From Clostridia bacterium (GTDB lineage: Bacteria > Bacillota > Clostridia > Oscillospirales > Acutalibacteraceae), in NCBI GenBank assembly GCA_017624735.1, contig JAGAMK010000050.1:1-56627 (forward strand): a DNA stretch of 56,627 nucleotides, read 5' to 3'. This document shows, piece by piece, positions 2,228 through 52,279 of this stretch. The translations under genes and the position numbers were made by a program. Each line of letters starts with the position of its first letter. Positions within the stretch are counted from its first letter, which is position 1. The notes under the pieces are model-generated. The model was given only the letters and a program-made list of their open reading frames with translations. It had not been told where the DNA came from and did no database searches.

Positions 2228-2263
2228 AACGCCTTACAATTGTAAGGCGTTCCTTTTTTATTT
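2228..2263. terminator. Bidirectional terminator between aldo/keto reductase and the carrier protein
   Basis: A perfect 24-nt palindrome (2228-2251) is followed by a T-rich stretch on the plus strand and by an A-rich stretch that serves the opposite strand. It lies exactly between two convergent genes. Confidence 0.85.
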
Positions 2264-2485
2264 TCTTACTGATGCAATATACTTTGCCATTTCGCCAACA
2301 GTTTTGTAGTCAATAAAATCTTTTGACTTAAGGTCAACTCCAAAAACTGTTTTAACGTCTGTTACAAGACACATTGTATCAAATGAACTCATTTCCAAAT
2401 CAGCTCTAAAATTGCTTTCGGGAGAGATGTCTTCAACTTCCACGTAGTTTTCAAGGATTTCAACAAGCTTTGTGAATTCTTGCAT
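2258..2485 (-). CDS. Free-standing acyl/peptidyl carrier protein
   Basis: 75 aa, four-helix carrier protein size. The phosphopantetheine attachment site is in LEMSSFD, most likely Ser34. It would carry an acyl or aminoacyl thioester between the adenylation and condensation enzymes encoded just upstream. Its ATG lies inside the end of the condensation ORF (97-nt overlap, minus-1 frame). It is preceded by AAAGGAA at a workable distance and by an in-frame TAA at 2492-2494, so it is translated separately rather than as a fusion. It is the last gene of a three-gene operon. It could in principle be a fatty-acid ACP, but the neighbours argue for a dedicated carrier. Confidence 0.85.
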   Translation of the reverse strand: MQEFTKLVEILENYVEVEDISPESNFRADLEMSSFDTMCLVTDVKTVFGVDLKSKDFIDYKTVGEMAKYIASVRK

Positions 2486-3939
2486 TCCGGTTTACCGTTC
2501 CTTTCTGCATCAGTAAGTGCGATTTTATCAAGTATTTCTCCGACTGTAATGTCAGGATTTTGTGCACTCATAACAAGTGCTTTTTCGATTTTAGTATAAA
2601 GAAGACGAAGGTCATATTCTGCAGGTGGCTCTTTTCTGTGTTCAAAGCAAAAGTCAAGACCGTTATCCTGTTTTCTATGTCTTATTGTAACATACAGTGG
2701 TATCATTGTAGAGCCGTTGTTGTACCAAATACTCTTTGCAGTCTTTTCCATTTCCTCATCAATATATGAACTCTTCATAAGTGGTTGATACGAAAGACCA
2801 AAGCTGTCATATGTTGAGTCAGCCTTTGAATTTTCTGGCATAGATTTGTGTCTTTCCTTAAGAGTATCCATAAAACTTAAGCTTGCATGCTGATACATTT
2901 CATTCTGAATATCGGAAATCTTTTGAACTGCTTCACAGAAGGTTTCTTCAGGCTTAACAATACTTCTCATTGGTAAGAAGTTGATGCGAAGACCACCTGA
3001 TTTCTTTTCAGCAATTGTACCACGTCGGTTGATAATCATTTTAAAGGAAACATCCTCCTGATTATCGTTAAAGCAGGAAAGACCTGTACGGACACCCATT
3101 GAAAGCACGGCAAAGATTGAAAGATTTCGGTCATTACAGAGTTTCATAATGCTTTCACTGTCTTCTGCACTCATACTCAGGTTAAAAATATCGGCATCAG
3201 GAAGTCCAGAATGAATGTCAGCATATCTCTGCTCCGGGTTCTTTTCTTGCTGATGTTTAAGACGATTATCAATCATAAAGTCAGTAAAGATTGGCTCAGT
3301 TGACTTTGCGAGTGAATCATACCAATATTTTTTGTCGATTTCACATTGTTCTGATTCCTGATATTCAAGTTCCTTTAGGAGAACAGGGATATAAGGACGC
3401 ATTGGCTTTGGATAAGGAGTACCCTGAGTCTTGCTCTTGTAGATTTCAATAACATCATTTAAGAACATCTTAACTGAATAAGCATCCATAGCAAGGTGAT
3501 GGAATCTTATGAAAAGTCCGTGATAACCGTTCTTGAACTTAACAACTGCAATCTTGTGAACCTCACATTCATACATTGGGATATTCTGTCTTGAAATTCT
3601 TGTAAGCTCTTGTTCAGCTTCTTCAACTGTCTTGTAGCTGTAATCCCAATCCTCAATAACAAGCTCGCTCTTTTCAGTAACATACTGATGAAGATTAAGG
3701 CTTACCTTTTTATCCTTTGTGAAACGAAGTCGCATTGTGTCACAACGCTCGATTGCTTCATAAACGGATTCCTTCAAAATGCCGATATGTAAGTCACCTT
3801 GCCAATAGTATCCACAACCAATGTTGTTAACAGGATATCCTGAACCATATTTGAGTGACATTAAAAACATCATTTTCTGTGAGTTAGAGATTGGATACGC
3901 CTTAACGACCTGACCGTTACGTAGTTTTTTCTCTATCAT
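2389..3939 (-). CDS. Stand-alone NRPS-type condensation domain protein
   Basis: 516 aa, one condensation domain of the chloramphenicol-acetyltransferase fold and nothing else. The active-site motif is HHLAMDA (residues 147-153), with Ala in place of the usual Gly of HHxxxDG. The general-base His148 and the structural Asp152 are kept. The N-terminal AYPISNSQKMMF matches motif C1. It should form an amide or ester between a carrier-bound acyl group and an acceptor. It overlaps the upstream adenylation gene by 4 nt (ATGA). The last 32 or so residues are read out of frame through the carrier protein gene and are unlikely to be functional. No A, T or TE domain is attached. Confidence 0.8.
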   Translation of the reverse strand: MIEKKLRNGQVVKAYPISNSQKMMFLMSLKYGSGYPVNNIGCGYYWQGDLHIGILKESVYEAIERCDTMRLRFTKDKKVSLNLHQYVTEKSELVIEDWDYSYKTVEEAEQELTRISRQNIPMYECEVHKIAVVKFKNGYHGLFIRFHHLAMDAYSVKMFLNDVIEIYKSKTQGTPYPKPMRPYIPVLLKELEYQESEQCEIDKKYWYDSLAKSTEPIFTDFMIDNRLKHQQEKNPEQRYADIHSGLPDADIFNLSMSAEDSESIMKLCNDRNLSIFAVLSMGVRTGLSCFNDNQEDVSFKMIINRRGTIAEKKSGGLRINFLPMRSIVKPEETFCEAVQKISDIQNEMYQHASLSFMDTLKERHKSMPENSKADSTYDSFGLSYQPLMKSSYIDEEMEKTAKSIWYNNGSTMIPLYVTIRHRKQDNGLDFCFEHRKEPPAEYDLRLLYTKIEKALVMSAQNPDITVGEILDKIALTDAERNGKPECKNSQSLLKSLKTTWKLKTSLPKAILELIWK

Positions 3940-5489
3940 TTTGCTTCATCCTCCGCAAAATTAAACTGAATTCTCTTGATTTTACCTGTTGAGGTTCTCT
4001 CAAAAGGCTTTTCTCTGATGATAAATGAATGAATATGTCTGTCTGTATTCAAAGTTGAATTAACTCTGTCCACAATCTTGCTGATTTCGGCAGGAATATC
4101 TGTAATTCCCAAAGTACTAGCAAGTGCTTCATCAGGAAAAATTTCTGCAATGATTGTATCCTTTTCACCACGAACAACGATTTCCTTAACAATTCCATCG
4201 TCAACAAACTTGTTTTCAAGCTCTTCAGGGGAAATGTTTTCGCCGTTCGAAAGGATAATAAGGTTTTTCTTTCTACCAACGAGGTAGATGTGATTGTTTT
4301 CAATATAACCTAAGTCACCTGTATGTAAATATCCGTCTTCAGTAAATGCTTCTGCAGTTCTTTCAGGTTTTTTGTAATAACCCATCATGACTGAAGGACC
4401 TTTAACTTGAATTTCACCGTCAACAATTCGTACATCGTCAACACCGGTGAGAACACCATTTGAATATTTGTTATCTTCTGAAAAGTCAGATGTTGTAATA
4501 CGAGGACTACATTCACTCATACCATAACCCTGACGAGCAGTAATTCCGTATTTTGCAAATTCGTCAATCAAAGCACCACTAAGAAACGCACTACCTGCAA
4601 TAAATCTTGTAAGGCGTTTGCCTACAACAAGTTCAGCAGCCTCACGGGGAGAAAGTTCAGGATGTTTTCTTTCTGCAATTTTGATTTTTGTAATAATAGC
4701 CTTACAAAGTAAAGGAACAATTCGTGTGTTTGTTGGTTCAAAAATTAAAAGATTTCTGTAAAGGTTTGTGAGTGCTCCGTTAAGACAGATTGTAGTGCCG
4801 TCATAAAGACCTTTCAGCACATCACAAGCATAACAGAAAACATGGTGCATAGGTAAAATTGAAAGACAAACTTCACCTACACCAGATTTGTATGTATCGT
4901 AACAAGAGTTAGAAGCAAGGTTATGGTTAGAGAGCATAACACCTTTACGCTCACCGGTTGTGCCCGATGTATAAATTATCAATGCACATTCATAAGGGGT
5001 AATTTCAATGTTTGAGAGGTGAGCATATTCAGAGTCACTTGAATAAGTTCTAAAAATATTATCAAACCAATGCCAGTCACCCAAAGATACAACCTGACGG
5101 ATGCCTTTGTATGTTTTCTGAATTTCCTCTGCTTTTCCTAAAAACTCTTCTTCGCAGAAAAGCATCTGGATATCAGCGTCATCAAAAAGCATGCAAGCTT
5201 CATCGACTGAAATGTTTGGGTCAAACGGTACAACAACATTTCCGCTGCAAATCATACCTGTAAGACAAGCGATATACTCATAACTTGTTTTACCGATAAA
5301 TGCGATGTGCATCTTTTCTTTTTCAATTGTTTTGATATATCTGCTTACCGCAAAGCAGTCTTCACGAAATTCAATAAAATTTTTAATCTCAATTTCACTA
5401 TCACGGAAAAATTTACAAAAGTCTCTTTCACCATATTTTTCAGCAGCAAAATTTACAATATCCTTTACAGTTAAAAGGTTTGGATTCAT
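3936..5489 (-). CDS. Acyl/aminoacyl-AMP ligase (free-standing adenylation enzyme)
   Basis: 517 aa, ANL superfamily. The phosphate-loop motif YTSGTTGERKG lies near residues 173-183, YGMSE is the A5-like motif, HTGDLGYI and GRKKNLIILSNGENI form the hinge and core A7-A8 region, and the C-terminal catalytic lysine is in TSTGKIKR. It should activate a carboxylic acid as its adenylate and pass it to phosphopantetheine, presumably on the carrier protein two genes downstream. It is the first gene of the operon, behind its own promoter at 5565-5593. Substrate is unknown: the pocket is neither a clear amino-acid nor a clear fatty-acid type from inspection. Confidence 0.85.
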   Translation of the reverse strand: MNPNLLTVKDIVNFAAEKYGERDFCKFFRDSEIEIKNFIEFREDCFAVSRYIKTIEKEKMHIAFIGKTSYEYIACLTGMICSGNVVVPFDPNISVDEACMLFDDADIQMLFCEEEFLGKAEEIQKTYKGIRQVVSLGDWHWFDNIFRTYSSDSEYAHLSNIEITPYECALIIYTSGTTGERKGVMLSNHNLASNSCYDTYKSGVGEVCLSILPMHHVFCYACDVLKGLYDGTTICLNGALTNLYRNLLIFEPTNTRIVPLLCKAIITKIKIAERKHPELSPREAAELVVGKRLTRFIAGSAFLSGALIDEFAKYGITARQGYGMSECSPRITTSDFSEDNKYSNGVLTGVDDVRIVDGEIQVKGPSVMMGYYKKPERTAEAFTEDGYLHTGDLGYIENNHIYLVGRKKNLIILSNGENISPEELENKFVDDGIVKEIVVRGEKDTIIAEIFPDEALASTLGITDIPAEISKIVDRVNSTLNTDRHIHSFIIREKPFERTSTGKIKRIQFNFAEDEAK

Positions 5490-5564
5490 ATTTCTACATC
5501 CTCAAAAAAATATAAAACTGCTTTTTCATAAAAAAGCACACGAGTGCATAAAACACTACATAGA

Positions 5565-5593
5565 ATAATAAACAAAAATCCTGTTTATGTCAA
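5565..5593 (-). promoter_or_regulatory. Promoter of the A-C-carrier operon
   Basis: On the minus strand TTGACA (5593-5588) and TATTAT (5570-5565) are 17 nt apart. The leader that follows, about 70 nt long, holds a GCTTTTT/AAAAAGC hairpin and a T-rich stretch before the ribosome site GAGGATG, which could modulate expression. Confidence 0.7.
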
Positions 5594-5660
5594 TAAAATC
5601 GGACAATCTTATACACATTTTGACATTTGTCAAAGTTGTTGAAAATGAGATATATTTTTC

Positions 5661-5689
5661 TTGAATAATTAACACATTAAATGTATAAT
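5661..5689 (+). promoter_or_regulatory. Promoter of the ceramidase-like gene
   Basis: TTGAAT (5661-5666), a 17-nt spacer and a consensus TATAAT (5684-5689). It is back-to-back with the promoter of the A-C-carrier operon, so one regulator could control both sides. Confidence 0.7.
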
Positions 5690-5718
5690 AAAATCAAAGG
5701 TATAAGAGGTGATTTGTT

Positions 5719-7326
5719 ATGTCTAAAAAGATTTTTGCAATAGTTATGGCGCTAGTTTTGTCATTCTCAGTTTTGGCTGTGCCAACTTTTGCGTGCTTTG
5801 ACAATTCTGGAAAAAGTGTTAATACTGAGAATTATATTAATCAGTTGCTTGATGATGTTATACACAAGGCTCTCAAGGTCTTCAATCTTGTATGGCCAGG
5901 TTATGACAGAAATTGGGATTCAAAAGACGAATATGTAACATCTGATTTCTATGAGGGTAAGGAAAAGTTTGACAATCAGGTATCAAATGGTGCAGAATGG
6001 TCATTGGGATATGCAGGTGCTTCCCTTTTGGAAGGCTTGGATATAATGAATGGTGAATATTTCCTTGCTGGTTCGTTGGAACCATTTGCAGGTAGAGTTC
6101 CTACAACAGTTTACGATGACCAGAGAGTAAGAGTTTATGCGATTTCAGATGGTGTAAGCGGAATTGTTATTCAGGCTGTTATTGATGGCTTTGGATTTTC
6201 TCGTGGTGATGTTCAGGAAATTCGTTCACGAATGAATAAATTTGCTGAAGAAAAAGGATACAACATTGTAAGTGTTAATGTGTCAGTTTTACATCAGCAC
6301 TCTTGCATAGATACTCTGGGTATGAATGTGCCACTTTTGTCTGCTCTTGTACTTAATACAACAAATGCTGCATTAGGTGGCTTGTTGGATGATTATAAGG
6401 TGACAAAGAATATGCAGTTTATGGAAAACCTTTTTGAGAAAACCGTAGATTGTATGCAGGCCGCAGTTGAGTCAATGGAAAAAGGAAACTTGTATTATGG
6501 TAATGCAGATATTGAAGAATATATGCGTGATGCCCGTGACCCGATTGCTTTTGATTCAAATGTTCACAGATTAAGATTTGTTCCTACAAATGGTGGTAAG
6601 GAAACTTGGATTTTACAGGGCTCAATGCACGCAACAGGTTTCGGTGCAGGTCCTGATGAATTGACAGCTGACTATCCATACTATATTGAAAAAGCAATCA
6701 ACGAAAAAGTTGGTGCAAATGTTGTATATGTAATGGGCGCTGAGTTGGCAATAAAGATGAAGGATGAATTAGTATATAATCCTGAATTGACTGACATCGA
6801 AAATCTTGCAAATTATGGTTATGCAATAGCAGATAAAGTAATTGCAATAAACAACGATATTCTTTTAAAACCTGTACTTAATGTGGCACACAAAGAAGTA
6901 TTTTTACCTGTTGATAACGGTATTCTTACTCTTGCTGCACGTGAGGATTTGTTTAACACAATCATTGTGAAAGATGGCCTTGCTAAATATGTGATGGTAA
7001 CGGAAATTGGTTATATGGAGCTCGGTAATAAGGTTGGGATTTTCCTTTGTCCTGGTGAATTTGACCCATCAATTATTTTTGGTGGACCCGAATCTGGCGA
7101 TGCAGCATGGAAAGGTGAAACTTGGGATTATCCAGCACTTAAGGATGTAGCAAATGTTGAATATGTTATGGTTTACGGACTTTGTAACGACCAGGCAGGC
7201 TATGTGCTTCGTGATAACGAATATCACTCACTTCTTAGCGAGAATGAAGAAGTAAACATTGTTAATAAGGAATCAGGCTCAATATTCACTCAGGAATATA
7301 TCGACCTTTTAACTATGGTGAAATAA
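5719..7326 (+). CDS. Secreted neutral-ceramidase-like protein
   Basis: 535 aa with a clear signal peptide (residues 1-25, cleavage near TFA-CF). The middle resembles the neutral/alkaline non-lysosomal ceramidase N-terminal domain: a D-x-R-V-R-V-YAISDG strand followed by VSVLHQHSC (192-196), where the family has a zinc-binding HTHSGP, then a second His in QGSMHATGFG (His304) followed by ELTADYPYYIEKA, and a late LCPGEFDPS. Neutral ceramidases cut the amide bond of N-acyl sphingosines with a zinc ion and can run in reverse. The SGP after HxHS is not kept, so activity or substrate may differ. It precedes a tandem of three surface proteins and probably shares a transcript with the first (35-nt gap). 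Confidence 0.6.
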   Translation: MSKKIFAIVMALVLSFSVLAVPTFACFDNSGKSVNTENYINQLLDDVIHKALKVFNLVWPGYDRNWDSKDEYVTSDFYEGKEKFDNQVSNGAEWSLGYAGASLLEGLDIMNGEYFLAGSLEPFAGRVPTTVYDDQRVRVYAISDGVSGIVIQAVIDGFGFSRGDVQEIRSRMNKFAEEKGYNIVSVNVSVLHQHSCIDTLGMNVPLLSALVLNTTNAALGGLLDDYKVTKNMQFMENLFEKTVDCMQAAVESMEKGNLYYGNADIEEYMRDARDPIAFDSNVHRLRFVPTNGGKETWILQGSMHATGFGAGPDELTADYPYYIEKAINEKVGANVVYVMGAELAIKMKDELVYNPELTDIENLANYGYAIADKVIAINNDILLKPVLNVAHKEVFLPVDNGILTLAAREDLFNTIIVKDGLAKYVMVTEIGYMELGNKVGIFLCPGEFDPSIIFGGPESGDAAWKGETWDYPALKDVANVEYVMVYGLCNDQAGYVLRDNEYHSLLSENEEVNIVNKESGSIFTQEYIDLLTMVK

Positions 7327-7361
7327 TAGCATATCATAATTACTGAGAAGGAGAAGTTGTT

Positions 7362-8315
7362 ATGGCAAAGAAAACTTTAACACCTGAACAGGCAGAAATC
7401 AAGGCAATAAAGAAATCAAGAAAATCAATGAATTTTTCGTCCTTTCTTGCAATAGTTTTAGCTGTTGTACTCACAATTGGTGTGGTTGTTATTGCGGACA
7501 ACACATCGTCAAAGCTTGTGACATCGAATAATGTGAATTCAGGTGAAAATGCTACAACACCAACAGATACAGAAGACACAACAGAAAAAATGGATAGTGA
7601 AATGATTATTGGTGACAATGGAACAATCACTATTGTTGGTGGAAATGATGATTCAACAAATAAGGATGAACAGAGTGAAACTAAAAAAGAACTTTCTGCA
7701 AATCCTGCTGAATGGTCCAAAGAGGATATTGTTGCAGTTTATAAAAACTCTGCTGCTAAATCACATAAGGTTGTAGAGTCCTCTCAGGTTTATGCTATGC
7801 CAAAACTTGTTGTGAATGACGGTGATGGAGCTCTTGGCTTTTTCCTTAAAATGATTACCCCAGTAATTGCTTCAGTATTGGAGAAGAATGCTATGTCTTA
7901 TGAAGGCATTACAGGTGGTTACACAAAAATGGTGCCAAATGATGTTCAGTCTGCTAAAGCTTACAAAGATGGCGATTATATCGTAATTGAAATGGTGATG
8001 GTTGAACAGACAGACGGAATATATGGCGATTATCAGGGTGGTTCTGTTGGTCATGCAGTCAATGTTTTAGGTAATGTTGCAACTGCAGTTGAGCAATTCC
8101 CTGCATTTGATATCAAGTTTGAAGAAGCAGATATTAAAATTCATTACACAAAACCAACTGTTAAGGTTAAGATAAACAAAGACGGTGTTATCGAAAAAGG
8201 CACTTGGAGTTATGATGCTCAGATTTATATAAGAAACTTGAAAATTGACAGTATTATGATTAACAAGGCAGATGCTGAAATTATTTATACAATAACAACA
8301 GGTGGCGGATTCTAA
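7362..8315 (+). CDS. Membrane-anchored paralog 1 of a tandem surface-protein family
   Basis: 317 aa, no family I can name. A charged cytoplasmic start (about 25 residues rich in Lys and Glu) precedes one transmembrane segment (about 26-46), then a Thr/Asp/Glu-rich linker (about 50-110) and a domain of about 200 residues shared with the next two genes. Shared landmarks are P-x-x-W-[ST]-x-x-x-I-V, the GITGGY signature, DVQSAKAYKDG, a MVMVEQTD strand, GTWSY and the C-terminal TGGGF. The even spacing of short strands suggests a beta-rich extracellular domain. Its ribosome site AAGGAG lies in the 35-nt gap after the ceramidase-like gene. Confidence 0.75.
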   Translation: MAKKTLTPEQAEIKAIKKSRKSMNFSSFLAIVLAVVLTIGVVVIADNTSSKLVTSNNVNSGENATTPTDTEDTTEKMDSEMIIGDNGTITIVGGNDDSTNKDEQSETKKELSANPAEWSKEDIVAVYKNSAAKSHKVVESSQVYAMPKLVVNDGDGALGFFLKMITPVIASVLEKNAMSYEGITGGYTKMVPNDVQSAKAYKDGDYIVIEMVMVEQTDGIYGDYQGGSVGHAVNVLGNVATAVEQFPAFDIKFEEADIKIHYTKPTVKVKINKDGVIEKGTWSYDAQIYIRNLKIDSIMINKADAEIIYTITTGGGF

Positions 8316-8320
8316 TTTAT

Positions 8321-8346
8321 GACGGGACATAAGTTCCCGTCTTTTT
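8321..8346 (+). terminator. Terminator after paralog 1
   Basis: A 7-bp GC-rich stem (GACGGGA with TCCCGTC) is followed by five T. It separates paralog 1 from the promoter of paralog 2. Confidence 0.75.
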
Positions 8347-8351
8347 ATTCG

Positions 8352-8380
8352 TTGACAAATTAAGTATTATGTCGTAAAAT
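8352..8380 (+). promoter_or_regulatory. Promoter of paralog 2
   Basis: TTGACA (8352-8357), 17 nt, TAAAAT (8375-8380). The 13 bases ATTCGTTGACAAA (8347-8359) recur exactly at the promoter of paralog 3. Confidence 0.7.
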
Positions 8381-8421
8381 ACTATAGTATTAATTGAGTA
8401 TTATCCGAAAGGAAAACGAAT

Positions 8422-9369
8422 ATGGCAAAGAAAGTTTTAAGTGCTGAACAAGCAGAAGTAAAAAAATTGAAAAAACAAAGCTCATCAATGAAGTGGACAG
8501 GATTTTTGGCATTTATGTTAGCATTGGTTTTGGTGTTTGGCATTATAGCTATTGGCAAAGCTGTTCCCTCACCGGGAGAGTACATAGAAGATAATGTTTC
8601 AACAAATACACCTGGTGGACCGGTAAACACACCGGGCGGTCCTGAACCTGTTCCTGGTGGTCCTGTTGATGAAGGAACTGGTGAAAATCCATCGGGTGAT
8701 GATGCAACACCTGATAATCAAAATCCTTCAACACCACAAAGAGAATTGCCTGAAGACCCTAAAGAATGGACAAAGGATGAAATTGTTAAGTTCTATAGGG
8801 AATCTGCCCAAAAGTCAACAGGTGTTAAGTCGGTTCAGAATATGTCAATGAATAATGGCATGAATGTTAAACTGAATAATAGTGCAATCGAATTTGTTAT
8901 TGACCTTGCTGAACCTATTATCAAGTTGGCTTTAAAGAATAACTCAATCGAATTTGATGGCATTACTGGTGGATATAATAGCCTTGTGCCATCCGATGTG
9001 CAGTCTGCAAAGGCGTATAAGGACGGAGAGTATACTGTTGTTGAAATGGTAATGGTTGAACAGACTGACGATGCTTATGGTGATACATATAAGGGTACAG
9101 TTGGTCATGGTATTTCAGTTGTAGGTAATATTGCAGTTGTAGCAGATAATTTCCCTGATTGGAATATCAACTTTAAAGATGCTTTTGTTGAACTTAAATA
9201 TGTGAATCCGGTTATTAAAGTAAGAATTAACAAAAATGGTATAATCGAAAAGGGAACATGGAGTTACCTTGTTAATGTTCATGTTAAAGGCCTTCAGATT
9301 GAAAGTGTTGTGGTTGAAGATGCAACAACAGTAATTGATTACGTTATCAAAACTGGTGGCGGATTCTAA
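8422..9369 (+). CDS. Membrane-anchored paralog 2 with PGGP repeats
   Basis: 315 aa. Same plan as the preceding gene: a Lys-rich cytoplasmic start nearly identical to paralog 1 (MAKKVLSAEQAEVKK), one transmembrane segment (about 27-47), a linker and the shared domain. The linker differs completely and holds four PGGP units (about residues 62-87) followed by a Pro/Asp/Asn-rich stretch. The domain carries GITGGY, DVQSAKAYKDG, VEMVMVEQTD, GTWSY and the end TGGGF. It has its own promoter and terminator, so it is an independent transcription unit. Function unknown. Confidence 0.75.
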   Translation: MAKKVLSAEQAEVKKLKKQSSSMKWTGFLAFMLALVLVFGIIAIGKAVPSPGEYIEDNVSTNTPGGPVNTPGGPEPVPGGPVDEGTGENPSGDDATPDNQNPSTPQRELPEDPKEWTKDEIVKFYRESAQKSTGVKSVQNMSMNNGMNVKLNNSAIEFVIDLAEPIIKLALKNNSIEFDGITGGYNSLVPSDVQSAKAYKDGEYTVVEMVMVEQTDDAYGDTYKGTVGHGISVVGNIAVVADNFPDWNINFKDAFVELKYVNPVIKVRINKNGIIEKGTWSYLVNVHVKGLQIESVVVEDATTVIDYVIKTGGGF

Positions 9370-9380
9370 TAAAATTTATT

Positions 9381-9414
9381 AAGGTGCTAATTCATTAGAA
9401 TTTGGCACCTTTTA
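9381..9414 (+). terminator. Terminator after paralog 2
   Basis: AAGGTGC (9381-9387) pairs with GCACCTT (9405-9411), and AATTC with GAATT inside it. A short T run follows. Confidence 0.7.
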
Positions 9415-9500
9415 TCGCTTTCTTCCTTTAATGCATAATAAGTAAATAACATTCAAAAAAGCGAATCACAAATTTGAGGATAAAATGCAAACGGCATTCG

Positions 9501-9529
9501 TTGACAAAGTACATTTTTTATAGTAAAAT
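9501..9529 (+). promoter_or_regulatory. Promoter of paralog 3
   Basis: TTGACA (9501-9506), 17 nt, TAAAAT (9524-9529). The same hexamers and the same flanking ATTCG occur at the promoter of paralog 2, which points to gene duplication together with its control region. Confidence 0.7.
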
Positions 9530-9560
9530 TTATATGTATGTTTACTAGGAGGATATCTCG

Positions 9561-10439
9561 ATGAAAAAAATACTTGCAATATTTGTTGCTCTTTCAATGC
9601 TTGTATGTATGGCATCATGCACAAAGATTAGTGTAGTTGTTCCAAATAAGACTAATCCAAACAATCAGCAAAACAATAATCAAAATAATGATTATCAGAT
9701 TCCTGATGATTTCAATAATGATTTTACTGACAACAATCAAGATAATTCGTTTGACAACAATGATGTACAGAATGACAACTCTCAATCAGGTCAGTTAAGC
9801 GATAATCCTGCAGACTGGTCAACAGCACAGATTGTTGACTATTATAAAAAAGCAGCAGGCAGAACACATAATTCAGTAACATCATATCAGAATATGACAA
9901 TGCGTAAAGGTTCTTTGAGTGCTCCTGGTATTAACAGCACTTTGCTTAGCTTTGCAGAGGGTGTTATGGCAACAGCACTTTCAAATAACTCAAAGGATTT
10001 TAAGGGCATTACAGGCGGACATCAAAAACTTGTTGCATCCGACGTTGCAAGTGCAAACGCATATAAGAGTGGCAACAATATTGTTATTGAAATGAAAATG
10101 AAGGAACAGACTGATAAGGGTAACGGTAAGATGTACGAAGGTACAGTAGGTCATGCTATTTCAGTTGTTGGTGATATTGATTCAGTTATAGGTCAGTTCT
10201 CAGGTCTTGGAATGGATGCTCAGATTGCCGATAACGACTGTACACTTCAATACAAGAACCCTGTGCTTAAGGTTACTATCAACAATAATGGTATGATTAT
10301 CAACGGAACATGGAGTTATGTAGTATATATTACTCTTAATAACCTTCAGATTAAGGCAATGGGATTGACTGTTCCTGTTAAGCAGGCAACCTCAATCGTT
10401 GATTTCTATGTAATTCTTAATGGCGGATTTAAAGCATAA
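9561..10439 (+). CDS. Lipoprotein paralog 3 with Asn/Asp-rich linker
   Basis: 292 aa. Unlike paralogs 1 and 2 it begins with a lipoprotein signal peptide ending in the lipobox MASC (Cys about residue 20), so it should be lipid-anchored outside the membrane. A strongly Asn/Asp/Gln-rich linker (about 30-75) follows, then the shared domain with W-S-T-A-Q-I-V, GITGGH, DVASANAYKSG, a MKMKEQTD strand and GTWSY. It ends NGGFKA. The ribosome site is AGGAGG. It is a third independent transcription unit of the family, with a changed mode of anchoring. Function unknown. Confidence 0.75.
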   Translation: MKKILAIFVALSMLVCMASCTKISVVVPNKTNPNNQQNNNQNNDYQIPDDFNNDFTDNNQDNSFDNNDVQNDNSQSGQLSDNPADWSTAQIVDYYKKAAGRTHNSVTSYQNMTMRKGSLSAPGINSTLLSFAEGVMATALSNNSKDFKGITGGHQKLVASDVASANAYKSGNNIVIEMKMKEQTDKGNGKMYEGTVGHAISVVGDIDSVIGQFSGLGMDAQIADNDCTLQYKNPVLKVTINNNGMIINGTWSYVVYITLNNLQIKAMGLTVPVKQATSIVDFYVILNGGFKA

Positions 10440-10453
10440 TTGAATAAAAAAGT

Positions 10454-10487
10454 AATTGCCCATGGTAATAAACCGTGGGCAATTTTT
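10454..10487. terminator. Bidirectional terminator between paralog 3 and the C-fold protein
   Basis: A 12-bp stem (AATTGCCCATGG with CCGTGGGCAATT, one G-T pair) has T runs on both strands and separates convergent genes. Confidence 0.85.
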
Positions 10488-10497
10488 GTTATGTTTT

Positions 10498-11937
10498 TTA
10501 GTTGTTTGCAATTTCTTTCATGCTTTCTTCCATATAGTTAAAGAAAGTATCAAGCATTTCCTTGTCTTTCTTGGTGCCTTGAATACACATTGTAATAATA
10601 GCATTACCGTTAAGGGATAATGCAGTGGCAACTGCACAGTTCTTTTTCTTTGCCGCACCCGCAACCATAGCAAAGGTTGGCTCGTGTCCGTCTAAAGAAC
10701 AGAATTTCGCATCAAGGCGACCAACATTACTGACGGAAAGGTTAGCATTGTTATAGAACATCTTTACAATCAATTCTGCCTGAATATAAACAAGCTGAGT
10801 AAAAGCATAATTGAGAAGAGGGAGTCCGTATAGACCTAAAAACTCATCTTCCTTTGATTTCCTGTTACACTCAGAAACTTCTTTAAGAGTATCAAAAACA
10901 GTTTTGCCCCTTTTTGATACTGTACATGGCATGAAGGTTGTTTGGTTGGTGTAACCAATTCTGTTTGGGTCCTTCATATATCGTCTTAAATCAACAGCGC
11001 AGGAGAGAGTAAGGCTTTCGTCGTCGCAACCTAACATCTTATATGTAGCATCAATATAACTTGCAGAAAGGACGTCGTTTGCAGTTGCACCTATTTCCTT
11101 TGCCTTCTTCACAGCACCCATAAATATTTCTGAAGGTATAACCTTGGTGATAAGAATATTATGGTCATTTTCTGATGTTTCTGTAAAGGGTAGCGTTTTC
11201 TTTTCTTTTGAAGTCTTATTGGCAAATTTGGTCTTTGCTGCTTTTCTTGTTGATTCAGGTAAGTCTTTGTATACTTCATCAAGTTTTCTCGAGCCTGTTC
11301 TGAAGTCCAATGGCGTTTTACCATCGGCAACATATTCATTGTATGCTTTGAAAAAGTCCCCAAGTAATTGCTTGATTCCGCCACCGTCCGTAATCATGTG
11401 ATTCCAAAGAACACATAATGCACATTTGTTATCCGTTACACACAACTTAAATTTAAGCTGAACATTGTCTTTAAGGTCAATGGTCTGAACAAGAAAATCG
11501 TAGGTACTTTTTTCAATATCGTTAGTATTTTCAATTGATAAAACATCATCAATGTTATAATCACAAACTTTCCAGTATGGTGCAATATGATTGTCAATAA
11601 ACATTGAGTGCAGAATAGGTGAGTGCTCAAAAAGGCTTATAAGTACAGTTTTAACTGCTTCAAAGTCAGGAATGAAATCGTAGTCAAGCCTAAAACGTGC
11701 TATTCTGTCCATATAACAACGGCACATATAGTTTACCTTGTCATATACCTCTGCACGGACTTTCTTTGCATTATAGCCATTCTTTATAATATCCACTGCA
11801 ATTTCTGCACATGCTTTATCATCGTTAAGACCACGCTTTTTAAGTAAATCACAGTATTCGTTGATTTTTGAAAAGGCTAAAGCCTGCTTTTTTACAGGCA
11901 GGCTTTCAGTATATTGTTTAATAATTGTTTCTTTCAT
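10498..11937 (-). CDS. Condensation/acyltransferase-fold protein
   Basis: 479 aa. The active-site motif LWNHMITDGGG (His180, Asp184, Gly185) is the HxxxDG of the chloramphenicol-acetyltransferase/NRPS condensation superfamily, with Asn in place of the first His. A late N-x-T-F-M-P-C segment and NLSVSNVGR fit the C-terminal half of that fold. It resembles the free-standing alcohol/amine acyltransferases of this superfamily more than a modular C domain. It starts 14 nt after a GH3-family gene on the same strand, so the pair probably act together in forming an ester or amide. Substrates are unknown. Confidence 0.7.
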   Translation of the reverse strand: MKETIIKQYTESLPVKKQALAFSKINEYCDLLKKRGLNDDKACAEIAVDIIKNGYNAKKVRAEVYDKVNYMCRCYMDRIARFRLDYDFIPDFEAVKTVLISLFEHSPILHSMFIDNHIAPYWKVCDYNIDDVLSIENTNDIEKSTYDFLVQTIDLKDNVQLKFKLCVTDNKCALCVLWNHMITDGGGIKQLLGDFFKAYNEYVADGKTPLDFRTGSRKLDEVYKDLPESTRKAAKTKFANKTSKEKKTLPFTETSENDHNILITKVIPSEIFMGAVKKAKEIGATANDVLSASYIDATYKMLGCDDESLTLSCAVDLRRYMKDPNRIGYTNQTTFMPCTVSKRGKTVFDTLKEVSECNRKSKEDEFLGLYGLPLLNYAFTQLVYIQAELIVKMFYNNANLSVSNVGRLDAKFCSLDGHEPTFAMVAGAAKKKNCAVATALSLNGNAIITMCIQGTKKDKEMLDTFFNYMEESMKEIANN

Positions 11938-11951
11938 AAGGTTTTCACCCT

Positions 11952-13655
11952 TTAAAATTGTGTATGGTTAAAGAAGAATTCTTTTCTTTCTTCTGAATTG
12001 ATAACCTTGATAGGCTTAATCTGGTTAAGGTTTGCACCATTCATTCTGAGCATTTCGCGATATTCATCGTATGTGCCGTGACGAAGGAATTTAACTTCAC
12101 AGTGTCCCAACGCACCACTCTTGATAAGTGGACCAACAGAAACGTTACCTGCACAAAGACATTTTTCAAATTCTTCTGCATAAATAGCTTCATCTTCTTT
12201 TGTATGTTCTTTTGTGCCTTCAACAAGGAGTATGTAATGTCCTGGTGAAGTATCTCTGTCAGGATAAATGCTGTAACCAACAAACATTTCTCCCATATTA
12301 TCAGAGAAATTACCAACGATTTCATCAAAAGCAAGCTGATTGATTTTCTCACCACTGATGTTAGCAATCTGATTAAGACGATAGCAGAAAGTAACCTTTG
12401 GAGATTCGTGATAATAACCTGTTACCTTAACAACGTCTTCGATACGATAACGGTAGAAACCACTTCTGTTTGTAAGAATAAGTTCATATTCCTTGCCAAC
12501 TTCAAGTTCGCTGATTGTTAAAGGCTTTGTGCCTTCAGGAGCATCCAATGGAAGGAATTCAAAGAAAGCATTCTGTGGAAGAATAACATATTCATAAGAG
12601 TTTAATTCGTTTGGAACAGCCATAAGAGCTTCAGTAGCAGCATAACCAACATAATGGATTGGCATATCTTCACCAATGTAGCGGCGAAGTCTCTGCTGAT
12701 AGTGAGAAAGAGCACCTGTACCCATACCATACATCCAACCACATCTTGGCCAGATTCTTGTAACGATTGCTGACTCGTCAAAGCCTTTTTCAAATTCAGC
12801 ACGGAGCTTTGCAGCACGTTTTGGGTTTGGCTTGATTCTCTTTTGAAGACTTGCACGGATGTGGTCAGGGATTCTTACATTTTCATTAAGTTTACCCTTT
12901 GCAATATCGTCACAGAACATTTCCCAGTTTTCTTCAAGATAGAAGAACATTGATTCAAGTGTTGTAATGAAAATTGTACCAAGGTAACTGATATCCTCGT
13001 CCTGCAAGGCAAAGAAAAGCTTTACATAGTGCATATCCATATCTACATCAGCTTCAGGGAACATAACCTCTTTTGGAGAGCATGTGTAGAATTTAACAAT
13101 AGGTTTCATGTTAAGGAAAGGGATTGATGAAAGACATGAAACAGTAGCACCACCAGGGGTCTTTCTGTAATTAACCTCAGCAGTAAGAAGACCTCTTTGA
13201 GGAGGAAGAAGCTTGTGCTTTTCTTTCCAGAAGTATTTTACTGCACAACCAACAGGCAAACTAAAACTGAAGCACATAATTGTCCATTCAGAAAAACCTG
13301 AAAGAGGAACAAGCTTGCTTCTACCCGTACTACCTGAAGATTCGGTGAAACGACGGATATATCTGTTTGTAATGAGTCCTTTTTCACCCTTTGCCATTCT
13401 CATAATATAATCTTCATAATCAAGGTATCCTGAGAGAGGAACAATATTCTGATAATCCTCTATTGATTTAACCTTGTCAAAATTATTCTTTTTACCGTAT
13501 TCGGTAGTCTTGTTATCACGCATAAGGTCTTTAAGCACCTTTTCCTGCATTTTATTTGCATTTTTTGCGTAGATGTTAAGTTTGATTTGTTCACTGATAC
13601 CAAGGAAACCGCCGATAGCAGTAAACAAAGGTCTGAAAAGTTTCATAATCTTCAT
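11952..13655 (-). CDS. GH3-family acyl-adenylating amide synthetase
   Basis: 567 aa, matching GH3 proteins in length and motifs. The ATP-binding motif TESSGSTGRSKLVPLS (about 104-119), the central HYVGYAATEA and the hinge region NRSGFYRYRIEDVVKV are characteristic. Plant GH3 enzymes adenylate carboxylic acids such as indole-acetate or jasmonate and join them to an amino acid without a carrier protein. Bacterial members are mostly uncharacterised. Coupled to a condensation-fold gene and next to an MFS transporter, it suggests synthesis of a small acyl-amino-acid-like conjugate; that is inference. ATG start with AAGGGG about 10 nt upstream. No convincing promoter was found in the AT-rich 13656-13800. 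Confidence 0.8.
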   Translation of the reverse strand: MKIMKLFRPLFTAIGGFLGISEQIKLNIYAKNANKMQEKVLKDLMRDNKTTEYGKKNNFDKVKSIEDYQNIVPLSGYLDYEDYIMRMAKGEKGLITNRYIRRFTESSGSTGRSKLVPLSGFSEWTIMCFSFSLPVGCAVKYFWKEKHKLLPPQRGLLTAEVNYRKTPGGATVSCLSSIPFLNMKPIVKFYTCSPKEVMFPEADVDMDMHYVKLFFALQDEDISYLGTIFITTLESMFFYLEENWEMFCDDIAKGKLNENVRIPDHIRASLQKRIKPNPKRAAKLRAEFEKGFDESAIVTRIWPRCGWMYGMGTGALSHYQQRLRRYIGEDMPIHYVGYAATEALMAVPNELNSYEYVILPQNAFFEFLPLDAPEGTKPLTISELEVGKEYELILTNRSGFYRYRIEDVVKVTGYYHESPKVTFCYRLNQIANISGEKINQLAFDEIVGNFSDNMGEMFVGYSIYPDRDTSPGHYILLVEGTKEHTKEDEAIYAEEFEKCLCAGNVSVGPLIKSGALGHCEVKFLRHGTYDEYREMLRMNGANLNQIKPIKVINSEERKEFFFNHTQF

Positions 13656-13809
13656 GCTTTTATTACCCCTTTATTTGTGTCTTAATATCAAATTATAAGT
13701 TTATAGACACATAACAATATAATTGTATAACATTTTAATCTTTAATGCAACAAATTTTTTGTTATTTAATATATATTTGAATAGTTGTTTAAATGAAACG
13801 CAATAAATG

Positions 13810-13838
13810 TTGACATAGATAGTTTTAATATTTATAAT
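13810..13838 (+). promoter_or_regulatory. Consensus promoter of the MFS transporter
   Basis: TTGACA (13810-13815), 17 nt, TATAAT (13833-13838): a perfect sigma-A consensus. The transcript starts about 20 nt before the ribosome site AGGGGAG. Confidence 0.8.
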
Positions 13839-13866
13839 TTATAGTAAGAAAATAGGGGAGAGTAAT

Positions 13867-15258
13867 ATGAAAAATACAGAAAAAGTTGCATTAAAAGAGC
13901 AACAACAAGTAAAACGTCTGAAAAGGATGCAGGGAAAAGGTAGTAGTAAGTATTTCTTTGTCTTGCTTATTCTTATTGCCATTGTTAACATTCTGGATGA
14001 GGTAACAAGTAATCTTACTGTTACGGTTCAATCTTCTTTTGTAACGGAGTTTTTTGTCAATAATCCGTTTATGGGTAAGTTTTACTCATTTGAAGAGGGC
14101 TTGGCGCTACATTCAACCATTGGCATATTTACCTATGTTTTAGGCATTATAACACCATTCTATAAAGCACTTGCTGATAAATGGGGAAGAAAACCTTTGT
14201 TTGCCCTTTCAACTCTTGGTATGGCAACTGGTCTTTTTGTTATCAACCTTTCAACAAGTTACATAATGTTTTTAGTTGGTTTTGCTATTATCAGTTTCTT
14301 TATGGGGCACGATATTCAGATTATCTATATCCTTGAAGAAGCACCTGATAAACATCGTGCAAAGATATATAGCTTCTTGAAGAGCTTTGGTATTTTGGGT
14401 GTTATTCTTATTCCAACACTTCGGGATATGTTTATGGGAGATGACCCAACAAAATGGCGTGAAATATTCCTTGTTCCGGCTGTTATTGGGTTTGCGGCAG
14501 TTCTTTTAGTTGTTCTCTTTGCAAAGGATACAAAGGTTTTTATTAATGAAAGAATCGAATATCTTTCCCGTCCTTATGAAGAACGTCAAGCAGAGAAAGA
14601 ACTCAAAAAACAACAAAAAGAAGCTCAAAGAAACCAGTCAGGTGTCTTTAATGGGGTAAAATATATCTTCTCAAATTCTGACACAAAGAATCTTATCATT
14701 TCTCATATCATCTTTGACTCTGCAATGCCTGCAATTGCCCTTTATTTTGAATCCTCCATGCACAAAGTTGGTATGAGTACAAGTGAAATTACCAAGGCAT
14801 TATTTATGGTGCCTGTGGTTTATGCTACAATAACATTCCTTTCAGGATTTATTGCAGATAAGCTTGGCAGAAAAGTTACCATTACAGGTTTTTCCATTAC
14901 TTGTATAATTGGATATTCATTGTTCGTTGCAGGTATCCTTTGTGGTTGGAATCCATATCTTATTGGTTTCTTTGCAGGACTTTATCAAGGTTCATACTGG
15001 ATTGGCAGAGATTATATGAATGTTATGATGACGGAAAAAGTTCCAACAGACATCCGTGCATCCGTTGTAGGTGCAGAAGGGCTTTTAGTAATCATCGGAC
15101 TTGCAGTAGGTTATTTGTTAGCAGTTGTAGGAATGCTTGTGTTCCCAATTTGGTGGGTATGCCTTGCGATTTCTGTTGCAGCAGTAGGTGTGGCAGCAAT
15201 AATGTTTACATTAAAAGTTAAAGAAACCAAAGGCGTAAACCTTGATGAAATAAATTAA
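13867..15258 (+). CDS. Major facilitator superfamily transporter
   Basis: 463 aa with about 12 hydrophobic segments. The MFS loop 2-3 signature is visible in DKWGRKPLFALSTLG, and its echo between segments 8 and 9 in DKLGRKVTITG. A charged central loop rich in Lys, Gln and Glu (about 235-255) separates the two halves, and the first 30 residues are a basic cytoplasmic tail. It resembles the sugar/metabolite porter branch, but the substrate cannot be named. It is divergent from the GH3 gene, so export of the GH3/C-fold product is possible. Confidence 0.8.
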   Translation: MKNTEKVALKEQQQVKRLKRMQGKGSSKYFFVLLILIAIVNILDEVTSNLTVTVQSSFVTEFFVNNPFMGKFYSFEEGLALHSTIGIFTYVLGIITPFYKALADKWGRKPLFALSTLGMATGLFVINLSTSYIMFLVGFAIISFFMGHDIQIIYILEEAPDKHRAKIYSFLKSFGILGVILIPTLRDMFMGDDPTKWREIFLVPAVIGFAAVLLVVLFAKDTKVFINERIEYLSRPYEERQAEKELKKQQKEAQRNQSGVFNGVKYIFSNSDTKNLIISHIIFDSAMPAIALYFESSMHKVGMSTSEITKALFMVPVVYATITFLSGFIADKLGRKVTITGFSITCIIGYSLFVAGILCGWNPYLIGFFAGLYQGSYWIGRDYMNVMMTEKVPTDIRASVVGAEGLLVIIGLAVGYLLAVVGMLVFPIWWVCLAISVAAVGVAAIMFTLKVKETKGVNLDEIN

Positions 15259-50335: not shown

Positions 50336-52054
50336 TTAACCCTTCTTTTCGTTCATATCCGCAGTAATTTTTTTGAAATTAATCTTTCCCATCGCAGTTC
50401 TTGGCAATTCTGCCTGGAATATAACATCCCTTGGCATTGCAAATTCTGCAACATTGTTTTTACAAGTTTCAAGAATTCTTTCACGCAGAGCTTCTAAATC
50501 CATATCCATTGATACAGGCTGAACAACAGCCACGATTCTTTGACCCACACTACGGTCCTCAATGCCTATTACACAGCTTACAGCAACACCATTACAACCA
50601 TTTATTACTTCTTCAATCTGTGTAGGATAAATGTTGTAACCTGCTGAAATAATCATCTTGCAGTGTCTTTGACGATAGTATAAATATCCGTCCTCATCCA
50701 TACACCCAATATCGCCTGTGTGAAGCCATTTCTCGCCATCCTCATGCACTTGTAATGCGAGATTTGTTTCAACTTCGTTCTTGTAATAACCCTTCATCAA
50801 AGTAGGTCCGGTAATACAAATTTCGCCATCTTCACCACGAGGAACTTCATTATGAGTACCAAACTCACAAATCTTGATTTTATTATCAGGGAGAGGTAGT
50901 CCGGTACTGCCATATTTATGACCGAAGAATGGGCTGATGCAAGCAGCAGAAAGGCACTCTGTAAGACCATAAGCCTCTGTCATTTGCTCAGACGAGCCAC
51001 CGTTTTTCAAATATTTATTCATTCGTTTATGGAGTTTGTCGCTCATTTTATCTCCTGAAAAGGCAACCATTTCAAGGAAGGATAAATCTTGCTTTTCAAT
51101 TTCTTCTGAACGAGAAAGTGCTTCGAATAAAGCGGGAACAGCATAAACGTGATTGATTTTGTTCTTGAAAATCAACTTTGTACAAGCTTTAAAATCAAAT
51201 TTTGGAACAAGGAAAACCTGCATGCCGAAATATAACATAACATGCATACACATGGCAAGTCCAAAACCGTGGAAAACAGGCATAAGTGCTAATGCCTTTT
51301 TACCTGCAGCTTCTTTTGTGTTATCACGTTTAATTTCTTCTGCTTGTATAGCCATGCAGTTGAAAGCACGATTATGAATCATAACTCCTTTTGGAATTCC
51401 TGTTGTACCACCACTGTATAGAATAGCAGCAATATCGTCACCCTTGCCATCGTCAACAGGAAGTGATTCTTTTCTGTTTTTGCCAGTTTTAAGGAAATCA
51501 TTCCAATAAATGATGTTATGGTTTGGATTGAACTTCAAATCCAATTTATTCTTCATCAAATAAAGTGGCTTGAGATAAAAGGGGAGAGCATCTGCTATAC
51601 GAGCTAATACCATAACAGGTTTTTGTGATGTTTCCCATTCTATATCTGCAAGTTTTGGATAAAGCATATCAAATGTGATAATCGCTTTACTGTCAACGTG
51701 TTCAACAAATTTTTTTATCTCATTTGCAGAGAGTAATGGGTGAATCATATTTGCAACTGCACCCATACGATTAATTGCGTAAACAGAAATGAGTGCTTGT
51801 GGAGTGTTAGGTGCAACAACTGATACGAAATCACCTTTTTTTACACCGCTTGCCAGTAATGCTTGTGCAACAGTCTCGATAGTTTCAATCATCTGTGCAA
51901 AAGTTATTTTTTTGTTATTGAAATTAAGAGCATAGTAATCAGGATATTTTTCTGCAGTTTCTTTTAAAAGGGAAACCACAGAAAACTCTGGATATTCAGG
52001 TCTGAAATTTTCAGGCGAGTGATTTTCACTCCAGATATTTCTTTCTCTTGTCAT
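50336..52054 (-). CDS. Acyl-AMP ligase (fatty acyl starter loading)
   Basis: 572 aa, ANL superfamily of the long-chain acyl-CoA synthetase/fatty acyl-AMP ligase branch. Motifs: ILYSGGTTGIPKG (about 212-223), YGLTECLSAAC, a HTGDIGCMDEDGYLYY hinge and GYNIYPTQIEEVI, then the catalytic lysine in TAMGKINF. With a carrier protein directly downstream and an NRPS divergent, it most likely activates a fatty acid and loads it on that carrier. I see no large insertion to separate FAAL from CoA ligase with certainty. Confidence 0.85.
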   Translation of the reverse strand: MTRERNIWSENHSPENFRPEYPEFSVVSLLKETAEKYPDYYALNFNNKKITFAQMIETIETVAQALLASGVKKGDFVSVVAPNTPQALISVYAINRMGAVANMIHPLLSANEIKKFVEHVDSKAIITFDMLYPKLADIEWETSQKPVMVLARIADALPFYLKPLYLMKNKLDLKFNPNHNIIYWNDFLKTGKNRKESLPVDDGKGDDIAAILYSGGTTGIPKGVMIHNRAFNCMAIQAEEIKRDNTKEAAGKKALALMPVFHGFGLAMCMHVMLYFGMQVFLVPKFDFKACTKLIFKNKINHVYAVPALFEALSRSEEIEKQDLSFLEMVAFSGDKMSDKLHKRMNKYLKNGGSSEQMTEAYGLTECLSAACISPFFGHKYGSTGLPLPDNKIKICEFGTHNEVPRGEDGEICITGPTLMKGYYKNEVETNLALQVHEDGEKWLHTGDIGCMDEDGYLYYRQRHCKMIISAGYNIYPTQIEEVINGCNGVAVSCVIGIEDRSVGQRIVAVVQPVSMDMDLEALRERILETCKNNVAEFAMPRDVIFQAELPRTAMGKINFKKITADMNEKKG

Positions 52055-52207: not shown

Positions 52208-52279
52208 TAACTTAACTATAGCATTTATATAATAGGCGTGTTATGTGCAAAAAATATATTACTTCGAGGAGAATCTAAA

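Follow-up and report, generated by a model that had tools for sequence, protein, structure and literature searches.

Fatty acid amides (FAAs) made by gut Clostridia act on host G-protein-coupled receptors (GPCRs), according to PMC13142362, which also gives (D/H)HxxxDS as the typical motif of FAA condensation (C) domains, the residue after the Asp being Ser in 42%, Ala in 36% and Gly in 17%. The substrates of bacterial GH3 enzymes outside planctomycetes are still open, as stated in PMC12493201. Here we analyse the region 2258-15258 of a 56 627-nucleotide stretch from a Clostridia bacterium (contig JAGAMK010000050.1, positions 1 to 56 627; this whole stretch is called the window below). An operon for stand-alone adenylating (A), C and acyl carrier (ACP) proteins lies there near a GH3-family gene and a gene for a stand-alone C-fold protein (CF). 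Judged from homology and motif, the A-C-ACP operon belongs to a known kind of FAA cluster. In our best reading, the novelty is not this kit, already known, but its coupling to a second, GH3-based acyl-amide module. We put the coupling forward tentatively, as a proposal that may be right with somewhat less than even chance; it is supported because five-gene rows are found in L173, L174 and L177 (L numbers denote the compared loci and G numbers genomes), FAA C genes are enriched near GH3, and the surrounding frame is kept in L181.

Gene content of the locus

The genome carrying the window (G000) measures 2.04 Mb and is 97.5% complete. The region consists of four blocks: A-C-ACP (minus strand), a ceramidase-like gene followed by three paralogues (plus), GH3-CF (minus) and a major facilitator superfamily (MFS) transporter (plus). 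An earlier reading made from the letters alone (the sequence-only reading) had described a 13 kb set of ten genes or open reading frames (ORFs) uninterrupted by housekeeping genes. All ten are present between 2258 and 15258, most of the assignments were recovered with Pfam or NCBIfam, and no housekeeping gene lies between them. The genes are as follows.

2258-2485, minus strand: free-standing ACP of the FAA operon (PF00550, E 3.2e-10)
2389-3939, minus strand: stand-alone FAA-type C protein, motif HHLAMDA (PF00668, E 1.1e-35; Protein Data Bank (PDB) entry 12kh, E 2.6e-65)
3936-5489, minus strand: A protein, a stand-alone AMP-binding adenylating enzyme (PF00501, E 3.4e-42)
5719-7326, plus strand: secreted neutral-ceramidase-like protein, candidate zinc amidase, divergent from the A gene (profile match to 4wgk, 2.2e-5)
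7362-8315, plus strand: paralogue 1, anchored extracellular protein (42% identical to paralogue 2; N-terminal membrane anchor by eye)
8422-9369, plus strand: paralogue 2, anchored extracellular protein (similar to paralogues 1 and 3)
9561-10439, plus strand: paralogue 3, lipoprotein-type N-terminus (38-42% identical to paralogue 2; lipobox-like Cys at about residue 20, by eye)
10498-11937, minus strand: CF, candidate stand-alone C-fold acyltransferase, motif WNHMITDGGG (14 bp downstream of GH3; weak PF00668 match)
11952-13655, minus strand: GH3-family acyl-acid amido synthetase (PF03321, PF23571 and PF23572, above cut-offs)
13867-15258, plus strand: MFS transporter, divergent from GH3 (PF07690, E 1.3e-29)

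The A-C-ACP operon

The A and C genes overlap by 4 nt and the C and ACP genes by 97 nt (2389-2485), in different frames; the 97 nt overlap is likewise found in L148, L150 and L181. The best PDB match of the C protein is 12kh (E 2.6e-65), the runner-up being an ordinary non-ribosomal peptide synthetase (NRPS; 1.2e-11). In a tree of 39 C rows, 33 stand-alone C proteins including 12kh form one group (support 100/99) against six NRPS rows, three of which fill less than half of the columns and four of which have long branches. C hits outside 400-560 amino acids (aa) or below 100 bits were excluded from this tree, save the NRPS stretches used as outgroup. The entry 12kh sits in the sister group of the group that holds the window protein.

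The molecule in 12kh is named 'Condensation Domain Protein', stands alone and has the motif DHRLMDS. Because this motif and the stand-alone form fit the account in PMC13142362, 12kh is taken, from its entry description and these two traits, to be OaaC. The window motif HHLAMDA is of the type (D/H)HxxxD followed by S, A or G, with Ala after the Asp. Since the window protein clusters with 12kh/OaaC and carries an FAA-type motif, the word 'undescribed', which the sequence-only reading had applied to the whole system, fails for the A-C-ACP part: by homology it is an FAA cluster of the OaaA/OaaC/OaaACP kind. Of 150 genomes from the window's family, 20 have FAA-type C proteins (E <1e-20). In the FAA operons of 12kh's own subclade (L296, L298, L299 and L300), C is preceded upstream by a gene judged by eye to be TetR-like and by one whose product has about 320 aa.

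The GH3 enzyme and its partner

The window GH3 protein matches the N, M and C domains of the family in Pfam, all above cut-off (9.8e-76, 2.7e-25 and 3.6e-16), and is similar over almost its full length to plant GH3.8 (E 6.7e-54). It has intact SSGSTG, GYAATE and FYRYRIED sequences, which we take to be the three nucleotide-binding motifs of GH3 enzymes. Among 80 GH3 ORFs longer than 500 aa (the window and L150-L229), motif 1 is found in 79, motif 2 in 24 or 56 and motif 3 in 61 or 50, the counts varying with which of our two patterns is used for motifs 2 and 3. The candidate identity OlsH was rejected, as the NCBIfam model NF052613 scores 64.9 bits against a cut-off of 620. The nearest relatives of the window GH3 come from metagenome-assembled genomes (MAGs) of herbivore-gut Clostridia/Oscillospiraceae (90% identity in L150, 84% in L151 and L152).

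The CF protein (10498-11937) matches the Condensation family PF00668 at 1.9e-4 and 20.7 bits, under the curated cut-off of 30.6; a profile of four CF rows matches the C-fold of an NRPS in the PDB (bacitracin synthase, E 2.1e-5). The motif NHMxxDGG is conserved in these four rows and HxxxDGG in the listed GH3-linked CF motifs, and the motif is intact in the window protein. A scan of GTDB species genomes, from which the best 80 of 91 GH3 loci were kept, shows CF in 29 of the 80 loci, adjacent to GH3 and on the same strand in 28.

The GH3 tree has 119 rows (5 duplicate rows, ORFs of 400 aa or less and L130-L134 were excluded, L133 thus being without any row), and the 90 rows of the window's family form one clade. 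The subclade associated with CF comprises 32 rows, two of which have no CF and stop at contig ends (L154 and L180). No CF occurs in the sister subclade (6 rows, five genomes), where the genes after GH3 in L175, L176, L179 and L181 code for a DUF819 permease and for an enzyme resembling sphingosine-1-phosphate (S1P) lyase. The latter, tested in L181 (12881-14323), matches S1P lyases in the PDB at E 6e-112 versus 2.5e-32 for tyrosine decarboxylase. In a second large GH3 clade, a secreted lipase-like alpha/beta-hydrolase is often the neighbour of GH3; it is present in 28 of the 80 loci and adjacent in 21. The GH3-CF module looks undescribed. It is also separable from the FAA operon, occurring in genomes where no FAA C gene was detected.

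A second CF subfamily, free of GH3 and mostly with the motif ENHMCMDGGD, occurs in the window genome itself (G000:C14:82654-83982, L284) and in relatives (L287-L292); no FAA C, GH3, ceramidase-like or lipase-like gene was found near these CF genes in the stretches examined. M20 peptidases adjoin GH3-CF in L164 (13102-14604), GH3 in L271 of another clostridial family (11039-12487) and an FAA operon in L328 (12836-14287). By eye they look like N-acyl amino acid enzymes of the PM20D1 type; their PDB matches are aminoacylase and DapE, both weak, and the name 'PM20D1-like' was set aside.

Linkage of FAA genes with GH3 in relatives

A, C, ACP, GH3 and CF form an unbroken single-strand row in L173, L174 and L177; in the first two of these loci, 6-7 bp separate ACP from GH3 and 5 bp separate GH3 from CF. 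L192 contains GH3, ceramidase-like, C, ACP and lipase-like genes, all on one strand; C and ACP lie about 6 kb from GH3 in L227/L228, and a C protein directly follows GH3 in L136 and L137. The minus strand of L136 (6758-15814) codes for a 1376-aa fusion of a carboxylic-acid-reductase-like A-T-R protein (T, thiolation; R, reductase) with an Fe-alcohol dehydrogenase, for GH3, for a stand-alone C and for A; this row suggests a related pathway in which reduction yields an alcohol.

FAA C is found near GH3 in 8 of the 80 loci, with 0.51 copies expected (P 2e-4 when counted as five independent contexts), and the paralogues in 5, with 0.57 expected (P 3e-4). These chance estimates use hand-taken copy numbers, an assumed 2.3 Mb per genome and contexts judged to be independent; for the ceramidase-like family the copy number is an upper bound, pieces being counted. 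The bit-score thresholds of the locus tables were 100 for FAA C, CF and lipase-like proteins, 90 for ceramidase-like proteins, 60 for paralogues and 400 for A.

Within the sample of 150 family genomes, 13 of 18 GH3 genomes have FAA C versus 7 of the 132 others (Fisher 2.8e-10); for the ceramidase-like family, the figures are 16 of 18 versus 11 of 132 (Fisher 1.2e-12). Both tests ignore ancestry, and G011, G054, G078, G096 and G111, with C hits of E >1e-10, were counted as lacking FAA C. There are 38 genomes behind L150-L187, all except that of L186 in GH3 clade I: FAA C (E <1e-20) occurs in 21, all of clade I, G542 and G564 (E >1e-20) not being counted, and C of the window subtype (at least 42% identity) in 16. 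Among the 24 places in the 150-genome sample with a stand-alone C gene (E <1e-20), four are within 10 kb of GH3 and one is at 12 kb. The co-occurrence in relatives that the sequence-only reading called for is thus seen for FAA C with GH3 and for GH3 with CF; the physical nearness of the ceramidase-like gene to GH3 is close to chance.

The frame formed by A-C-ACP, the ceramidase-like gene with its paralogues and, further on, MFS recurs in L150, L181 and L319. The full gene set of 2258-15258 is repeated in the same order in L150 and most of it in L181; L319 has the set without GH3-CF. The A, C and ACP proteins of L181 are 91-93% identical to those of the window (89-93% when MFS is included), and its GH3 only 60%. 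This GH3 comes from the other GH3 subclade, and the DUF819 and S1P-lyase-like genes occupy the position expected for CF. In the genome of L319, which is also that of L179, GH3 occurs twice on another contig, accompanied by DUF819 and the S1P-lyase-like gene. Among 11 further C loci of GH3 genomes, the frame was found in L319 only. We infer that GH3 is accessory to the frame and can be exchanged.

Control stretches from other clostridial families

Twenty-four GH3 stretches from other families of the class served as controls; they span the stronger of 42 places listed outside the window, the weakest being excluded. None of these 24 stretches contains a stand-alone FAA C, CF, ceramidase-like, paralogue or lipase-like gene, and the lone M20 peptidase among them is the neighbour of GH3 in L271. 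A stand-alone FAA C (E <1e-70) is encoded elsewhere, not near GH3, in 6 of the 19 control genomes. GH3 genomes therefore do not, as a rule, keep FAA C linked to GH3, since some controls have FAA C genes that are unlinked.

Outside the family, too, GH3 meets A/T/C machinery, in another form. In L268 (4876-11153, minus strand), 35 bp separate a tandem GH3 pair from the gene for one 988-aa A-T-C protein, all on one strand; in L269 and L275, the distance between a GH3 pair and an NRPS with C-A-T-reductase domains is 3.7 kb. The A-like proteins of these three loci score 100-153 bits, below the A threshold, and hence stand outside the locus tables. The unlinked FAA C genes of other families and the A-T-C neighbour of GH3 in L268 roughly offset each other. 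Tandem GH3 pairs occur in 6 of the 24 control stretches (L264, L265, L267, L268, L269 and L275), several near ABC-transporter-like genes (by eye).

Secreted proteins and transporter

The ceramidase-like protein has a signal-peptide-like N-terminus (by eye). As a single sequence it gave no credible Pfam match and no useful PDB match. A profile of 37 rows of its family matches the neutral ceramidase 4wgk with a whole-sequence E of 2.2e-5, in two colinear pieces of which the better has i-E 0.0036, and 2zws with E 0.0039. The name given to 5719-7326 in the sequence-only reading thus appears right, for a distant relationship. The aligned positions hold HxH in 37 of 37 rows, a second H in 35, the Glu of PGE in 37 and Tyr in 36; we take these H, H, E and Y positions to correspond to the zinc ligands of neutral ceramidase. 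The SPN motif of ceramidases is present in 0 of 37 rows, and the label 'ceramidase proper' was rejected on this ground. The Ser of SPN presumably recognises the ceramide headgroup; if it does, the substrate of the window protein would be another N-acyl amide.

The three plus-strand proteins downstream are related, as had been proposed: they are paralogues, with 38-42% identity to paralogue 2, and their N-termini look, by eye, like membrane anchors or lipobox sequences, as expected of surface proteins. A paralogue profile found nothing significant in the PDB (best 0.048), and a match of paralogue 3 to PF11485 (0.012) was too weak to be used. Nearness of the ceramidase-like and paralogue genes to other genes is weaker evidence by itself, because both families are multi-copy in these genomes. 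The window MFS protein is 89-91% identical to those of L181 and L150.

Non-coding features and flanking genes

Three non-coding features were recorded.

5490-5718, no strand: divergent intergenic region between the A and ceramidase-like genes (promoter-like sites on both strands)
10454-10484, plus strand: terminator-like hairpin between the convergent paralogue 3 and CF genes (13-pair stem, T-rich tail)
13656-13866, no strand: divergent intergenic region between GH3 and MFS (12-of-12 sigma-70-like match on the plus strand, 13810-13838)

Over the whole region, promoter-like sites are barely more frequent than in shuffled sequences (57 versus a mean of 46.9, s.d. 6.2). A separate biosynthetic locus lies at 52238-56626 (plus strand), where an NRPS with C-A-T-C domains extends past the window end; it is adjoined by an acyl-CoA-ligase-like gene (50336-52054, minus strand).

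A possible pathway and its alternatives

From the observed gene content, homologies, motifs and linkage we infer an order of steps, with substrates and a product. As reported for OaaA and expected here by homology, the A protein would adenylate a fatty acid and load it on the free ACP. The C protein, being of OaaC type, would then join this acyl group to a small amine that diffuses freely, yielding an N-acyl amine as in the Oaa system. With ATP, GH3 may then make another amide bond. If the amine is itself an amino acid (5-aminovalerate, for example), its free carboxylate could be the site; alternatively, GH3 may act on a second acid. CF has a conserved HxxxDGG motif and could add a second acyl group to the GH3 product, as OlsI does after OlsH. 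More speculatively, export would fall to the divergent MFS, and outside the cell the product would be acted on or bound by the secreted amidase and the anchored paralogues.

In its complete form, the proposal is an assembly line of separate proteins in which two unrelated kinds of amide-bond ligation, ACP/C-type and then GH3-type, are followed by C-fold acyl transfer, giving a chain-extended or doubly acylated N-acyl amide that the secreted amidase and anchored paralogues would act on or sense, and in which exchangeable GH3 units (with CF, S1P-lyase-like or secreted lipase-like partners) would diversify the product in herbivore-gut Oscillospiraceae. We consider it unlikely that this chain holds in every part; the coupling of the FAA operon to the GH3 module, taken alone, is the more plausible claim.

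Several observations weigh against the coupling. In the window, GH3-CF forms a transcription unit of its own, with about 8 kb between it and C. L181 keeps the frame without CF, and L319 keeps it without GH3 beside it. No FAA C (E <1e-20) was found in 16 of the 37 GH3 clade-I genomes searched, whose completeness is not stated, and no GH3 in the stretches around the remaining 19 of the 24 stand-alone C places, several of them on short contigs. The ceramidase-like gene is near GH3 about as often as expected by chance (7 versus 2.9 expected, P 0.03, or 0.07 for six contexts).

The lack of a detected FAA C in 16 of the 37 clade-I genomes agrees with an alternative that we regard as possible, with the balance tipped against it: the locus would hold two self-contained neighbours, the FAA operon and a GH3-CF pair building a two-chain membrane amino lipid by an OlsH/OlsI-like logic. 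GH3 would make an N-acyl amino acid and CF would O-acylate it, the two pathways having fatty acids and perhaps regulation, but not intermediates, in common. The OlsH/OlsI precedent (PMC12493201) favours this alternative, as do the other partnerships of GH3, with an adjacent lipase-like gene in 21 of 80 loci and with DUF819 and the S1P-lyase-like gene in 4. The contiguity of the five genes in L173, L174 and L177 speaks against it, together with the enrichment of FAA C in GH3 genomes and near GH3, and the window GH3 scores far below the OlsH cut-off.

The locus could also serve breakdown of host, dietary or microbial N-acyl lipids, secreted enzymes freeing fatty acids and amines, and A and GH3 re-activating these or rendering them harmless by conjugation. 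Such a role would fit the genes for M20 peptidases and for ceramidase-like, lipase-like and S1P-lyase-like proteins that occur close to GH3 or to FAA genes, and the frequency of ceramidase-like genes in GH3 genomes. We find breakdown improbable, however: FAA C enzymes are biosynthetic, according to PMC13142362, the absence of SPN makes ceramide doubtful as a substrate, and ceramidase-like genes are weakly linked in position to GH3. Finally, a chance neighbourhood without functional link would agree with the multi-copy ceramidase-like and paralogue families and with the near-chance linkage of the former to GH3, but is very improbable and was rejected as sole explanation, given the five contiguous genes in three MAGs, the recurrence of the frame in the window, L150, L181 and L319, and a linkage above expectation (five FAA-GH3 contexts versus 0.51 copies).

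Comparison with known systems

Among the literature matches listed, which cover few subscription papers, none reports a link of GH3 or ceramidase-like genes to FAA clusters. The FAA and GH3-CF rows of some relatives hint at new microbial lipid signals. If GH3-CF extends or doubly acylates FAAs, microbes would make a family of lipid mediators that has so far gone unsought, and bacterial GH3 enzymes would gain a testable role in gut bacteria.

Like the FAA clusters of gut Clostridia (OaaA/OaaC/OaaACP of Coprococcus eutactus; Chang et al., cited in PMC13142362), the window encodes separate A, C and ACP proteins together. It differs from them by the addition of GH3, CF, the ceramidase-like protein, three anchored paralogues and MFS, none of which is mentioned in the portion of PMC13142362 available. 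The ceramidase-like protein shares the HxH, H, PGE and Tyr motifs, in colinear order, with neutral ceramidases (4wgk and 2zws), but the apparent homology is distant and its family is without SPN. The ornithine-lipid pathway OlsH/OlsI of planctomycetes, as described in PMC12493201, likewise combines a GH3-like enzyme and an acyltransferase in one operon. OlsI is an alpha/beta-hydrolase, whereas the partner of the window GH3 is a C-fold protein, and Pfam found no OlsI-type alpha/beta-hydrolase among the ten window proteins. With the plant acyl-acid amido synthetases GH3.8 and JAR1, the window GH3 has nearly full-length homology and the three nucleotide-binding motifs in common; the window enzyme is bacterial and operon-borne.

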